A stretch of DNA of 40,544 nucleotides, taken from positions 1 to 40,544 of the forward strand of contig NZ_SKOG01000009.1 in the NCBI RefSeq assembly GCF_007120195.1, in the 5' to 3' direction. The notes beneath the pieces were generated by a model. The model had not been told where the DNA came from. It did not search any database and saw only the letters and a program-made list of their open reading frames with translations. Positions within the stretch are counted from its first letter, which is position 1; each line of letters starts with the position of its first letter. Shown here in pieces: positions 10,801-20,066 of this stretch. The DNA comes from Aquisalimonas sp. (GTDB lineage: Bacteria > Pseudomonadota > Gammaproteobacteria > Nitrococcales > Aquisalimonadaceae). A program made the translations under genes and the position numbers.

Positions 10801-10968
10801 CTAGTGTCCTGTCCCGCAAATAACGTTACGATTGTCGCGGCCCTGACGGCCCCTGGCGGCGTTGCGCCTCCTCGCCGTAGTCCCCGCTAAGCCTCGTCGG
10901 CGCGCCTTGCCAGGAACCGTCAGGATCCACGCCAATTTTCGCAACGTATTTACGGGACAGGACACTAG
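10801..10968. mobile_element. 168-bp MITE-like element, copy 1
   Basis: The element is non-coding with terminal inverted repeats: a perfect 16-bp CTAGTGTCCTGTCCCG at both ends, followed by imperfect extension (AAATAACGTTACG against AAATACGTTGCG). It is identical in length, inverted in orientation and about 98% identical (4 differences noted by eye) to the copy at 19899-20066. The first 12 bases are shared with the 39-bp palindromes. It ends 4 bp before the stop codon of the acyl-CoA dehydrogenase gene. No transposase is present, so it would need one supplied from elsewhere in the genome. Confidence 0.88.
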
Positions 10969-14868: not shown

Positions 14869-16128
14869 ATGAGAACCCTATACCATAAGCGCGGGGCGCT
14901 CGTCGGCATGGTTGCCGCGGGCGCCCTGGCGCTGACCCCACTGACCGCCACACAGGCCGACGAGCCCATTCGCATCGGCTACATCGACCCCCTGTCCGGG
15001 CCTTTCGCGGACGTCGGTCATGCGGGGCTCAACCATTTTCGCTTTGCCGCCGAGCGCATCAATGACGAGGGCGGGATTCTTGGGCGTGCGGTGGAGATCG
15101 TGCCGTACGACAACCAGCAAAGCCCCTCGGAGTCAGCCTCGCACGTGCAGCGCGCCACCGGTCGCGGCATCCAGTTCGTCACCCAGGGCAACGGGTCGAA
15201 CATCGCCGGCGCGATCCTCGAGGCGGTCGACCGCAACAATCGCCGCAACCCCGACAACCGCGTGCTCTACCTCAATTACGCGGCCGTGGATCCGGCCTTC
15301 ACCAACGAGCGGTGCAGCTTCTGGCACTTCCGGTTCGACGCCGAGAGCACCATGAAGATCGAGGCGTTGACCACCTACATGGCAGACCTTGACGACGTTC
15401 AAAAGGTCTATCTGCTCAACCAGGACTACTCCCACGGTCACGTGATCGAACAGGCAGCCGAAGAGATGCTGGCCGAGAAGCGGCCGGATATCGAAATCGC
15501 CGGCAAGACGCTCCACCCCATCGGGCAGGTCCGGGACTTTGCCCCTTATGTCTCGCGCATTCGCGGCTCCGGCGCCGATTCGGTGATTACGGGCAACTGG
15601 GGCAGCGACCTGGCGTTGCTGGTCCGTGAGGCCGACAGTGCGGGCTTGGACGTGAACTTCTACACCTACTACGGCGGTGGTCTCGGTGTGCCGGCCGCCA
15701 TCGGCGACCGGGGCGTCGACCGCGTCCTGCAGATCACCGAGTGGCATGCCAACGTCAACGTGGAGGAGGATCAGCCCGAGTACGCCGAGTGGGTGGACGC
15801 CTTCAAGGAACGCTACCCCGACATCGACTGGTACTACCACCGAATCTACAACCAGATGTACATGCTGAAGGCGGCCATCGAAGAAGCCGGCACAACGGAG
15901 CCGAAGGATGTCGCCTCAGCGCTCGCGGGGATGGAGTTCGAGTCGCCCACCGGCACCGTTCACATGCGTGAAGATGACCACCAGCTCCAGCAGCCCCTCT
16001 ACCTCTCCATCATGGACGATGATGTCGAGTATGACGTGGAGAACACCGGAGTTGGATTCCGGACGCTGGCGAAAATCTCGAGCGAGGACGCCATGCTGCC
16101 CACCACCTGCGAGATGGAGCGCCCGTAA
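14869..16128 (+). CDS. Liv-type ABC transporter, substrate-binding protein
   Basis: This periplasmic type I binding protein (419 aa) belongs to the branched-chain amino acid/amide/urea class. Its signal peptide ends near TATQA-DEP. The fold opening IRIGYIDPLSGPFADVG and GRAVEIVPYDNQQSPSES are typical. The C-terminus contains two Cys-bearing segments, NERCSFWHF and TTCEMERP. The ligand cannot be read from sequence: leucine/valine, amides or aromatic acids are all possible. GGAGG precedes the ATG. A strong hairpin follows the stop codon and separates it from livH, as is common where the binding protein is made in excess. Confidence 0.87.
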   Translation: MRTLYHKRGALVGMVAAGALALTPLTATQADEPIRIGYIDPLSGPFADVGHAGLNHFRFAAERINDEGGILGRAVEIVPYDNQQSPSESASHVQRATGRGIQFVTQGNGSNIAGAILEAVDRNNRRNPDNRVLYLNYAAVDPAFTNERCSFWHFRFDAESTMKIEALTTYMADLDDVQKVYLLNQDYSHGHVIEQAAEEMLAEKRPDIEIAGKTLHPIGQVRDFAPYVSRIRGSGADSVITGNWGSDLALLVREADSAGLDVNFYTYYGGGLGVPAAIGDRGVDRVLQITEWHANVNVEEDQPEYAEWVDAFKERYPDIDWYYHRIYNQMYMLKAAIEEAGTTEPKDVASALAGMEFESPTGTVHMREDDHQLQQPLYLSIMDDDVEYDVENTGVGFRTLAKISSEDAMLPTTCEMERP

Positions 16129-16224: not shown

Positions 16225-17175
16225 ATGCTTGAGGTAATCGCGTTTTCCCTGTTGAACGGCCTGCTCTACGGCATGCTGCTGTTCATGCTCTCGAGCGGTC
16301 TGACGCTGATCTTCGGCATGATGGGCGTGCTTAACTTCGCCCACGCCAGCTTCTACATGCTCGGCGCCTATTTCGCGTACACCATGGGGCTGTACACGGG
16401 CTTCTGGGTCGCTTTGTTCCTCGCGCCCGTACTGGTGGCCCTGCTCGGTGCGATGGTGGAACGCTACGGGCTGCGCCGTGTGCACCAGCACGGGCACGTC
16501 CCGGAACTCCTGTTCACCTTTGGCCTGGCATATGTCATCGAGGAACTGGTGCGGCTGTTCTGGGGCAACATACCCATGAACTACCGCATGCCCGAGGCGC
16601 TGAACTTTCCACTGTTTACGCTGTTCGGCACGAGCTATCCCGCCTTCCGCGTGTTCATGCTGGTGGTGGCCGTGGTCATGTTCGTTGGCCTCTACCTGCT
16701 GCTCAAGAAGACCCGCGCCGGCCTGATTATCCAGGGCTCCCTGTCGCGGCCGGACATTGTCTCGGCGCTGGGTCACAATGTTCCGCAAGCCTTTATGTGG
16801 GTTTTCGCCTTTGGCACCGGCTTGGCGGCGCTTGGCGGTGTGATCGGCGGTATCCATTTCGTCACCGAGCCGGGCATGGCTTTCATGATGGGCCCAATCG
16901 TATTCGTGGTGGTGGTGCTGGGAGGGCTCGGTTCGATCCAGGGTGCCCTGATCGCCTCGATTCTCATCGGCGTTCTGCAGACCTTCGCCTTGTCCGTGGA
17001 CTGGTCCCTGGCGGCGCTCGGGGCTTACTTCGGCTACGCCGTGCCACCCGACCATTTCTTCGCCACACTCTGGTACATGGATTCCACGCGGCTCGCACCC
17101 ATCCTGCCTTACATCCTGCTGGTGTTGATGCTGATCTTCCGCCCGCGTGGCCTGATGGGGAAGCGTGAGACATGA
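16225..17175 (+). CDS. livH: Liv-type ABC transporter, permease LivH
   Basis: This inner-membrane permease of 316 aa has about eight hydrophobic segments. The family signature LTLIFGMMGVLNFAHASFYMLGAY is near the N-terminus, and a GGLGSIQGALIASILIGVLQT block (cytoplasmic coupling loop) near the C-terminus. It pairs with LivM to form the channel. Its stop overlaps the livM start (ATGA), so translation is coupled. The substrate is unknown; the symbol denotes family only. Confidence 0.9.
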   Translation: MLEVIAFSLLNGLLYGMLLFMLSSGLTLIFGMMGVLNFAHASFYMLGAYFAYTMGLYTGFWVALFLAPVLVALLGAMVERYGLRRVHQHGHVPELLFTFGLAYVIEELVRLFWGNIPMNYRMPEALNFPLFTLFGTSYPAFRVFMLVVAVVMFVGLYLLLKKTRAGLIIQGSLSRPDIVSALGHNVPQAFMWVFAFGTGLAALGGVIGGIHFVTEPGMAFMMGPIVFVVVVLGGLGSIQGALIASILIGVLQTFALSVDWSLAALGAYFGYAVPPDHFFATLWYMDSTRLAPILPYILLVLMLIFRPRGLMGKRET

Positions 17176-18452
17176 ATACGACACAAGAACGCGTTGCCGC
17201 CGGGCCTAACGCGTCGGCCGCAGTCTGGGCTCAGCGACTCTGGCCCTGGGTGCTGGGTGCTGGCGTTGTTGTGGTGATGCCCGTCATATTCACCTCCAGC
17301 TATGCAATCACGCTCATGAGCCACATGGGGGTGATGATTGTCTTTGCCCTGTCTTACAACATGCTCCTGGGTAATACGGGGTTGCTGTCGTTTGGCCATG
17401 CTGTGTACTTCGGGCTTGGTGCCTATACGGCCATGCATGTCCTGCGCTACATCCAGGCGACCGGGTTCGGTCTGCCCATCGAGCTCATCCCCCTGGTCGG
17501 TGCGTTGGCCGGACTGTTCTTCGGCATCATCTTCGGTTCCGTTTCCACCCGGCGCGCAGGTGTCGTCTTTGCGATGATCTCGCTCGGCATCGGTGAGATG
17601 GTGCACGCCAGTGCCCACATCTTCACCGGATTCTTCGGCGGTGAGGCCGGGCTGTTCGGCAATCGCACGGTGCCGTCGTCCCTGTTCGGTGTGGATTACG
17701 GACCCGGCATCGCCGTTTACTACCTGGTGATGGTCTGGACCTTGCTCGCTGCCGTGGCCATGTACCTGTTGCGCCAGACACCACTGGGGTGGATGGCCAA
17801 CGCCGTGCGTGACAATCCGGAGCGGGCCCAGTTCGTTGGCTACAGCCCGCAAATGGTGCGTTTCTTCCAGTTCGCGCTGGCGGCCACCTTCGCCGGGCTG
17901 GCCGGGGGGCTGTACGTGCTGGTGGACGAGATCGTCACCGACGAGACCGTGGGCATGATCCAGTCCGGCACCGTGCTGCTCAGCGCCTACATTGGCGGCA
18001 TCGGCTCCTTCTTCGGTCCGGTGCTCGGTGCCATCCTGGTGGTGTTCCTGGAGGGCGAGCTGAGCGACATCACGGATGCCTGGCTGCTCTACTTCGGCTT
18101 GCTCTTCGTGCTCGTGGTCATGTTCGCACCCCAGGGCATCTTCGGCGTGCTCACACAGCAGTTCTTCGCCTGGCGTGCGGGGTCTTGGAGGGGGTCCCTG
18201 GGCCCACGTCTTTACGGTGTGGCCTCCCTGGTCGTGGCTGCCATTGGCGTGGTTGCGGTCATCGAGATGGCGTATCACTATTTCCGGCACTGGAATCCTG
18301 CCGAACCCATGGCGCTGTTCATCTTCGAGGTGACCGTGACCGGCCCCATGCCCTGGGCGGTGGCGCTTACGGTGGCGGTGGCCGGCCTGGCGGCCTACGT
18401 CGGGCACGCCCGGCCCATGCTGCGCCGCGCTATGGGCGGAGGTGGACGATGA
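17172..18452 (+). CDS. livM: Liv-type ABC transporter, permease LivM with an extra C-terminal membrane region
   Basis: This is the second permease subunit. The core (to about residue 328) shows the LivM signature (NMLLGNTGLLSFGHAVYFGLGAY) and the coupling loop (GGIGSFFGPVLGAILVVFLE), ending MFAPQGIFGVL. At that point most LivM proteins finish. Here about 98 residues follow with two clear hydrophobic helices (about residues 346-370 and 394-415) and a basic tail. The total length is 426 aa against a usual 300-360. It overlaps livG by ATGA. The extension's role is unknown. Confidence 0.9.
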   Translation: MNTTQERVAAGPNASAAVWAQRLWPWVLGAGVVVVMPVIFTSSYAITLMSHMGVMIVFALSYNMLLGNTGLLSFGHAVYFGLGAYTAMHVLRYIQATGFGLPIELIPLVGALAGLFFGIIFGSVSTRRAGVVFAMISLGIGEMVHASAHIFTGFFGGEAGLFGNRTVPSSLFGVDYGPGIAVYYLVMVWTLLAAVAMYLLRQTPLGWMANAVRDNPERAQFVGYSPQMVRFFQFALAATFAGLAGGLYVLVDEIVTDETVGMIQSGTVLLSAYIGGIGSFFGPVLGAILVVFLEGELSDITDAWLLYFGLLFVLVVMFAPQGIFGVLTQQFFAWRAGSWRGSLGPRLYGVASLVVAAIGVVAVIEMAYHYFRHWNPAEPMALFIFEVTVTGPMPWAVALTVAVAGLAAYVGHARPMLRRAMGGGGR

Positions 18453-19204
18453 GCGCGCGCACCGCACTGGCGCTGAAGGGCGTGACCAAGAATTTCGGGC
18501 GCGCGGAGATCATCCGTGGCGTGGATCTGGAAATTCGCGAGAACGAGCGGCATGTCGTGATTGGCCCGAACGGGGCCGGCAAGTCGACGCTATTCCACCT
18601 GATCAGCGGCCGGCTACAGGCCAGTTCCGGTTCCATCCAGCTGTTCGGTCGCGAGATCGATGGTCTGCCACCCCACCGGATTAACCGCATGGGGCTGAGT
18701 CGCAGTTTCCAGGTCACCAATCTGTTCCAGAACATGACGGTCATGGAGAACCTGCGCTGTGCCCTGCTGTGGTCGCAGGGCCACAAGTACGCGTTCTGGA
18801 AACGGGTGACGTCGCAGCAGGGGGTGACACAACGCGCCGAAGAGCTCCTGGAGCGCCTCCACCTTAGTGAGAAGCGTGACGTGCCCGCGTCGCTGCTGAG
18901 CTATGCCGAGCAACGGGCCTTGGAGATCGGCGCCACCATTGCGTCGGGCGCGCAGGTGCTGCTGCTCGACGAGCCTACCGCAGGCATGAGCCGTACGGAG
19001 GCGGACGACATGGTGGAGCTCATCCGCGAGATCACCACCGACTGCACGCTTGTCCTCGTGGAGCACGACTTGGGGGTGGTCTTCAATCTGGCTGATAGGA
19101 TTTCGGTGCTGGTTTACGGCGAGATCATCGCCAGCGACACCCCGGAGGCAGTGCGCGCCAACGCTGCCGTGCAGGAAGCCTATCTCGGCACGGAGGCGCA
19201 TTGA
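18449..19204 (+). CDS. livG: Liv-type ABC transporter, ATPase LivG
   Basis: This 251-aa cytoplasmic ATPase pairs with LivF. Walker A GPNGAGKST and Walker B VLLLDEP with catalytic Glu are intact, and the H-loop His is present (VEHD). The signature is LSYAEQ (residues 150-155): Ala153 replaces the near-invariant Gly of LSGGQ and of the LivG form LSYGQ/LAYGQ. The frame is open upstream, but the ATG at 18449 overlaps the livM stop and starts the domain correctly. It ends in a TGATG overlap with livF. See the finding on a degenerate ATP site. Confidence 0.92.
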   Translation: MSARTALALKGVTKNFGRAEIIRGVDLEIRENERHVVIGPNGAGKSTLFHLISGRLQASSGSIQLFGREIDGLPPHRINRMGLSRSFQVTNLFQNMTVMENLRCALLWSQGHKYAFWKRVTSQQGVTQRAEELLERLHLSEKRDVPASLLSYAEQRALEIGATIASGAQVLLLDEPTAGMSRTEADDMVELIREITTDCTLVLVEHDLGVVFNLADRISVLVYGEIIASDTPEAVRANAAVQEAYLGTEAH

Positions 19205-19902
19205 TGCTGAAAACACACGATCTGCATGCCTACTACGGCAAGTCGCACGTGCTGCGTGGCGTGTCCATGGAAGTTCGGGGCGGTGAGATTGTCAGCCTCG
19301 TCGGGCGCAACGGTGTTGGGCGATCGACCCTGTGCAAAGCCGTTATGGGCCTGGTGGCGCCCGTGGGCAAGGTGCAACTGGAGGGTCAACAAATCGGCGG
19401 TAAAGCTCCTCACCAGATTGCCCGCCTGGGGTTGGGCTATGTGCCGGAGGACCGTGCCATCTTCCCCGGGTTGACGGTTGGCGAGAATCTCGAGCTGGGC
19501 ATAAAGAATCGTGGCCGCCAAGCCAGCCGCTGGGGTTACAAGGAGGTGTTCCAGCGCTTCCCGCGCCTCGAGGAGCGCCGGGATACACCGGGCGAAGCAC
19601 TCTCGGGGGGCGAGCAGCAAATGCTCACTATGGCGCGCACGCTGCTGGGAAACCCCAAGTGCATCATGGTGGACGAGCCCACCGAGGGGTTGGCGCCGCG
19701 GGTGGTCGCCGAGATTGCCGATCTGCTCGAGGAAATCGCCAGCGAGGGGATTGCCGTGCTCCTGGTGGAACAAAAACTGAACATCGCACGCAAGATCTCC
19801 CACCGCATGTACGTCATGGGGGATGGGCGAATCGTGTTTGACGGCACGCCTCAGCAGCTGGATGATGCCCCGGAGGTTCGCAAGGAGTGGCTGGAAGTCT
19901 AG
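19204..19902 (+). CDS. livF: Liv-type ABC transporter, ATPase LivF with Walker A Lys-to-Arg change
   Basis: This 232-aa ATPase is the partner of LivG. Walker A reads GRNGVGRST (residues 34-42), so the catalytic Lys is Arg40 (CGA at 19321-19323). The signature ALSGGEQQ is intact, Walker B is CIMVDEP, and the H-loop position is Gln (VEQK), as commonly in LivF. The ATG at 19204 (TGATG with the livG stop) is preferred to the TTG at 19201. The TAG stop (19900-19902) lies within the CTAG end of the 168-bp repeat, so the repeat abuts or supplies the stop. Confidence 0.92.
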   Translation: MLKTHDLHAYYGKSHVLRGVSMEVRGGEIVSLVGRNGVGRSTLCKAVMGLVAPVGKVQLEGQQIGGKAPHQIARLGLGYVPEDRAIFPGLTVGENLELGIKNRGRQASRWGYKEVFQRFPRLEERRDTPGEALSGGEQQMLTMARTLLGNPKCIMVDEPTEGLAPRVVAEIADLLEEIASEGIAVLLVEQKLNIARKISHRMYVMGDGRIVFDGTPQQLDDAPEVRKEWLEV

Positions 19903-20066
19903 TGTCCTGTCCCGTAAAGACGTTGCGAAAATTGGCGTGGATCCTGACGGTTCCTGGCAAGGCGCGCCGACGAGGCGTAGCGGGGACTACGGCGAGGAGG
20001 CGCAACGCCGTCAGGGGCCGTCAGGGCCGCGACAATCGTAACGTTATTTGCGGGAGAGGACACTAG
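19899..20066. mobile_element. 168-bp MITE-like element, copy 2
   Basis: This is the second copy, inverted relative to that at 10801-10968, with the same length and only 4 differences by eye (including C to G in the right terminal repeat, giving GGGAGAGGA). It has CTAG at both ends and 16-bp terminal repeats with that one mismatch. The left CTAG contains the livF stop, and the last G is the first base of the GTG start of the next gene. It therefore fills the whole intergenic space. Confidence 0.88.

Follow-up and report, generated by a model that had tools for sequence, protein, structure and literature searches.

ATP-binding cassette (ABC) ATPase dimers are arranged head to tail and each of their two ATP sites is composite; most work on degenerate ATP sites has dealt with exporters. 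Here we describe the ATPases LivF and LivG of a Liv-type (HAAT) importer from Aquisalimonas sp., which are predicted to form one consensus and one strongly altered ATP site, and we follow this asymmetry through related pairs. The genes lie in a stretch of 40,544 nucleotides, called the window below (contig NZ_SKOG01000009.1 of assembly GCF_007120195.1, positions 1 to 40,544). Human ABCG5/ABCG8 is a eukaryotic sterol exporter, neither a binding-protein-dependent importer nor a close relative of the window pair. Among described cases it is the nearest: as in the window pair, a Walker A Lys-to-Arg change (in ABCG8) and a changed signature (in ABCG5) share one site. Two articles give GSSGCGRAS for the ABCG8 Walker A and ISTGE for the ABCG5 signature, with one site inactive for hydrolysis (PMC7756502, PMC7756269). 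The exporters TAP, MRP1 and TM287/288 also combine one consensus with one degenerate composite site, according to a review. Unlike the Liv pairs, some degenerate-site exporters are described there as losing the Walker B Glu, which was never lost in the 287 pairs surveyed below.

Liv- and Urt-type importers offer further comparisons. E. coli LivFGHM consists of the same gene types as the window operon, and its LivF likewise has Glu in the Q-loop and Gln in the H-loop; its LivG signature reads LAYGDQ. Unlike the window pair, E. coli LivFG has lost neither the Lys of Walker A nor the second Gly of the signature. On one Klebsiella plasmid, UrtE and UrtD display the same asymmetry (VEQF / LSHGQK with VEHD), but this UrtE carries a Walker A Lys where the window LivF does not. 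A single-chain model of the window LivF (mean predicted local distance difference test score, pLDDT, 89.9) matched best, among solved structures, the Thermotoga maritima ABC ATPase 1JI0 (TM-score 0.91, 44% identity), which we take to be TM1139, a LivF. It has the Q-loop Glu and the H-loop Gln, and differs from the window LivF in its Walker A Lys. Structures of LptB, a homodimer, came next, with an H-loop His in place of the LivF Gln. In a sequence alignment, LivF Arg40, Glu82 and Gln190 stand opposite Lys, Gln and His of LptB.

The two predicted ATP sites of the window pair

LivG (18449..19204, 251 aa; Pfam ABC_tran and BCA_ABC_TP_C) and LivF (19204..19902, 232 aa; Pfam ABC_tran) are encoded on the + strand, as are all motifs given here, and the LivF ATG overlaps the LivG stop codon (ATGA). 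Both were assigned from sequence and LivF also from its structure model. Gene adjacency and known Liv systems suggest that the two proteins pair as a heterodimer. Given the head-to-tail arrangement of ABC dimers, the Walker A, Q-loop, Walker B and H-loop of LivF would then face the LivG signature.

The canonical site would be composed of the LivG Walker A GPNGAGKST (18563..18589), Q-loop Gln88 (18710..18712), Walker B VLLLDEP (18956..18976) and H-loop His206 (VEHD, 19064..19066), together with the LivF signature LSGGEQ (19600..19617), and it is wholly consensus. On the other side, LivF has Arg40, encoded by CGA (19321-19323), in its Walker A GRNGVGRST (residues 34-42, 19303..19329), Glu82 (PEDR, codon GAG, 19447..19449) in its Q-loop and Gln190 (VEQK, codon CAA, 19771..19773) in its H-loop. 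The LivG signature LSYAEQ (residues 150-155, 18896..18913) retains neither glycine of LSGGQ, with Tyr152 and Ala153 (codon GCC, 18905-18907) at these positions. By established ABC geometry, Arg40, Glu82 and Gln190 of LivF and Tyr152 and Ala153 of LivG are predicted to share one composite site. Five compared positions of this site are thus off consensus, and the Asp157-Glu158 pair of the LivF Walker B (CIMVDEP, 19660..19680) is retained. An initial annotation of this DNA had proposed such a split, citing Arg40, Gln190 and Ala153 as altered and the LivG Walker A, Walker B and H-loop and LivF LSGGEQ as intact. Direct reading bore out each of these residues, and the geometry supports placing the changes in one site opposite a canonical one; Glu82 and Tyr152 had been overlooked.

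We consider it probable, judging from sequence, that these proteins belong to a working HAAT importer in which the LivG-side site hydrolyses ATP and the LivF-side site mainly binds Mg-ATP. The LivG Walker A, Q-loop, Walker B and H-loop with LivF LSGGEQ would hydrolyse ATP and drive the transport cycle. The site containing LivF Arg40, Glu82 and Gln190 and LivG Tyr152 and Ala153 would mainly bind Mg-ATP and hold the dimer, with little or no hydrolysis. All four parts of this proposal are inferred: that the importer functions, that its two sites divide the labour, that the altered one binds ATP and that only one of them hydrolyses it.

The Arg/Ala subfamily and tests of linkage between its two changes

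The nearest relatives were taken as the best 80 of 421 LivF matches, selected by likeness to the window LivF and not by motif. All 80 have Arg at position 40, Glu in the Q-loop and Gln in the H-loop. Two of these loci had no LivG in the stretch (L079, L089). In the 78 LivG partners, position 152 is always Tyr and position 153 is Ala in 77 and Ser in one. One LivG (L093) had unreadable N-terminal motifs. The closest relatives come from Aquisalimonas and an Ectothiorhodospiraceae bacterium, and the set extends over alpha-, beta- and deltaproteobacteria, gammaproteobacterial genera, Desulfobacteraceae and a SAR324 bacterium. GRNGVGRST together with LTYAEQ occurred in all four same-genus genomes searched (L031-L034), and within the subfamily the Arg is written with six different codons. 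A sequencing error at the CGA codon at 19321, a concern raised in the initial annotation, is excluded by the same-genus genomes, the 80/80 Arg count and the six codons. More broadly, error or gene decay in the window genome has a negligible chance of explaining the changes, as the operon is intact with open frames and the residues recur in the same-genus genomes and the 80 nearest relatives.

A wider survey comprised 287 distinct pairs, obtained from 330 LivF rows after removing 15 without LivG in the stretch, 2 with the genes too far apart and 26 exact repeats; the count covers loci that gave a LivF row. The majority were located via likeness to the window LivF, and nearly all are from Pseudomonadota; some LivG proteins were split by local alignments and were re-registered by profile. 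The combination of Arg with Ala or Ser was present in 104 of these pairs (Ala 102, Ser 2). As this group was defined by Arg plus Ala/Ser, its own counts of these residues prove nothing, and the evidence for a subfamily is drawn instead from the 80 nearest relatives and from a tree. The tree was a quick build of 145 rows with the trait columns excluded and no archaeal or actinobacterial rows, supported by the Shimodaira-Hasegawa-like approximate likelihood ratio test (SH-aLRT) only, and 53 of its 142 inner branches were left open. On it, the 23 subfamily representatives formed one clade containing no other member, with SH-aLRT 100, in agreement with the earlier suggestion that GRNGVGRST with an altered LivG signature is a subfamily trait. 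Ser replaces Ala in the early-branching L041 and the nested L106, and also in plasmid loci of Thalassospira and Caballeronia outside the tree.

The initial annotation had further asked whether the LivF Arg and the LivG signature Ala co-occur. A search by motif of 249 Pseudomonadota genomes yielded matches in 65, many of them not LivF. In the 287 pairs, the Walker A residue and the second signature residue combined as Lys+Gly in 144, Arg+Ala in 102, Arg+Gly in 22, Lys+Ala in 7 and Lys+Pro in 4; rarer were Arg+Ser, Lys+Glu and Lys+Ser (2 each) and Lys+His and Lys+Ile (1 each). Strict co-variation thus failed, with 22 pairs having Arg opposite an intact Gly and 17 having Lys without the second Gly. 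The Arg+Gly combination marks a second Arg-bearing LivF group, with Walker A GRNG[AS]GR[ST][ST], Walker B LDEI and LivG signatures like L[PSA]YG[RQS]K in which the second Gly is intact (L156, L175-L178, L180, L185, L187-L190, L193-L197, L206, L220-L222, L233, L262). All 22 distinct pairs of this group have DEI in place of DEP in Walker B, and their LivG signatures include LPYGRK.

On the tree, Arg/Lys required at least 3 changes and Gly/non-Gly at least 5. Such tallies count gains and losses alike; two or more gains of Arg are the simplest reading, among others that are possible. A constrained tree joining all 30 Arg rows in a single clade was rejected by the approximately unbiased test (p-AU 0.0133). 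The combination of Arg with Ala/Ser had a single origin and was counted as one event; a statistical test for linked change had too few independent events (three at most on the tree, two on starred branches; sign test p 1). The two traits changed jointly once and separately in other lineages, which leaves strict co-variation unsupported. A looser statement holds: changes of the Arg and signature kind all gather on one site's side.

Asymmetry across the sampled family and the probable roles of the two sites

The canonical site was without departure at its eight catalytic positions throughout the 287 pairs. LivG had the Walker A Lys and the Q-loop Gln in 286/286 (one LivG was cut off before these motifs) and the Walker B Asp and Glu and the H-loop His in 287/287, and the signature Ser-Gly-Gly of LivF was likewise present in 287/287. 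Beside these positions only conservative exchanges occurred (Ser/Thr in Walker A; L/M/I at the first and E/Q at the fifth signature position). In the altered site, the LivF Walker A residue was Lys in 161 and Arg in 126, the Q-loop residue Glu in 242 and Gln in 42, and the H-loop residue Gln in 274, Lys in 11, Arg in 2 and His in none; a Gln H-loop is therefore common in LivF, as the initial annotation had stated. The LivG signature kept its first Gly in 8 pairs and its second in 166. Retained in 287/287 each were the LivF Walker B Asp, the Walker B Glu and the Walker A Ser/Thr. The 97 pairs left after thinning at 65% identity likewise had no departures on the LivG side and no His in the LivF H-loop.

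Samples drawn in other ways gave the same picture, as did LivFG of E. coli K-12. Of 90 loci drawn via the LivG tail, again from Pseudomonadota, 10 yielded no pair; this set contributed 75 further distinct pairs, in which the H-loop His was present in 75/75 LivG and 0/75 LivF. Sixteen plasmid loci, hand-picked for phylum spread from 90 matches listed (Halobacteria 4, Actinomycetota 3, Thermomicrobium 1, Pseudomonadota 8), had an H-loop Gln in all 16 LivF and His in all 15 LivG found in the stretches. Changes counted on the tree were equally one-sided: none at each of the eight LivG-side catalytic positions, and 3, 5 and 3 at the LivF Walker A, Q-loop and H-loop, with none at the LivF Walker B Asp and Glu. 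Signature positions 2 to 5 changed 42, 23, 14 and 49 times in LivG compared to 0, 0, 0 and 10 times in LivF, where the median column changed 44 and 41 times, respectively. Near-equal numbers were seen at the first signature letter (LivG 11, LivF 15) and at the Walker A Ser/Thr (LivF 25, LivG 22). These counts suggest that the sampled HAAT family is lopsided as a whole, with the window subfamily at its far end. The asymmetry claimed for the window pair is thus real but not particular to it, since it runs through the sampled family. The lack of an H-loop His in LivF seems to be ancient, and the LivG signature seems to have been eroded later, many times.

Two groups of unusual motifs were also seen. 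In 13 LivF proteins the H-loop residue is Lys (11) or Arg (2), and each of them has DEA in Walker B (L210, L229, L231, L237, L243, L253, L260, L265, L305, L322, L326, L334, L350). Twelve LivG signatures are almost unrecognisable (LTLPDR, LVPSEK, LNLHER, LGAAGL and others), with Walker B DEV or DES in 11 and DEW in 1; their LivF partners keep the Walker A Lys (L213, L235, L238, L241, L246, L252, L267, L269, L272, L319, L329, L347).

Full retention of the Walker B Asp/Glu and the Walker A Ser/Thr argues that Mg-ATP binding is kept at the altered site. An alternative is that the LivF-side site is worn out: one site would suffice for transport and the other would drift without a role, not even binding ATP. 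LivG signature positions 2 and 5 do change like a middling column (42 and 49 compared to the median of 44). Drift should hardly have spared the LivF Walker B Asp/Glu (no changes) or the Walker A Ser/Thr (287/287), however, and alone it hardly explains identical Arg40, Glu82 and Gln190 in 80/80 nearest relatives. We regard this alternative as unlikely.

Several points weigh against a LivF-side site that mainly binds ATP. The altered site still has Glu158, the presumed catalytic base, and slow hydrolysis there is therefore possible; some degenerate exporters, by contrast, lose this Glu, as a review describes. Both LivG signature glycines are retained in 8 of the 287 pairs, whose asymmetry therefore does not extend to the signature. 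The single origin of Arg with Ala/Ser provides no statistical support for their linkage. In addition, E. coli DppDF, another heterodimeric importer, is reported to hydrolyse ATP at both sites (PMC12136057), which indicates that asymmetry is not obligatory in importers. The DppDF report, together with the Walker B Glu present in 287/287 LivF and 287/287 LivG, would fit hydrolysis at both sites here as well, with Arg, Gln and Ala as variants tolerated owing to the catalytic Glu in each. We find this distinctly unlikely: eight positions are strict in one site and their counterparts in the other vary, Walker B excepted, and ABCG8 with its Walker A Arg is reported as hydrolysis-inactive at that site (PMC7756502).

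The importer operon, its surroundings and wider implications

The five-gene HAAT set is complete, with all genes on the + strand and all frames open. Upstream of the ATPase genes lie those for a periplasmic substrate-binding protein of the LivJ/HAAT type (14869..16128; Pfam Peripla_BP_6, E 7.2e-77), a LivH-type permease (16225..17175; BPD_transp_2, E 2.5e-30) and a LivM-type permease (17172..18452; BPD_transp_2, E 6.1e-29). The C-terminal BCA_ABC_TP_C tail of LivG scored 39.9 bits against a cut-off of 25.5, which assigns it to the LivG type. The NCBIfam equivalog cut-offs for the E. coli-type proteins were missed (LivF 167.7 of 441 bits, LivG 180.7 of 362 bits), as were those for the urea proteins, on which both ATPases had their highest NCBIfam scores (UrtD 208.8 of 304.1 bits, UrtE 227.8 of 285.8 bits). 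Naming the system a branched-chain amino acid or urea importer is therefore unwarranted. By sequence, the solved structure closest to the window binding protein is 4xfk (E 4.3e-54); a second binding protein of the subfamily lies equally far from it (E 1.6e-54). We suspect that 4xfk is P. aeruginosa PA4913, but not firmly enough to transfer published statements on its ligand and on D-alanine to the window importer.

Genes downstream on the same strand were not conserved, with none in 59 of the 81 loci counted, of 83 given (simple open reading frame caller). Acyl-CoA, keto-acid or acetoacetate genes adjoin three subfamily importers (L387, L388, L393), a possible hint at the substrate; three named loci are too few to name it. 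An element of ~167 bases at 19899-20066 starts at the LivF stop codon, and another lies at 10801-10966. Its ends are 20-base inverted repeats (CTAGTGTCCTGTCCCGTAAA, 90% complementary), and it matches at least 40 places in the genome at 95-100% (40 of 108 first-look candidates scored). Several copies stand at contig ends, and the element resembles a miniature inverted-repeat transposable element (MITE).

A broader proposal, which we advance tentatively and which falls a little short of probable, is that the whole HAAT family of bacteria and archaea has one hydrolysing site. The LivF-side His would have been lost before the sampled lineages split and the site kept as an ATP-binding hinge, which was further worn several times, with the Arg/Ala subfamily as an ABCG5/G8-like end point. 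Among the matches listed in full-text searches of open-licence literature there was no account of LivF/LivG site asymmetry; one match was an article on LptB (PMC6703430). One degenerate site is a known kind of arrangement; what seems to be new is that it spans a large importer family and reaches an Arg/Ala end point. The family offers a natural series, from few to almost all residues lost, for stepwise dissection of the site. If it is anciently asymmetric, the role of a degenerate site and the ATP used per cycle would become testable in E. coli K-12, whose importers of this type are simple and take soluble substrates.

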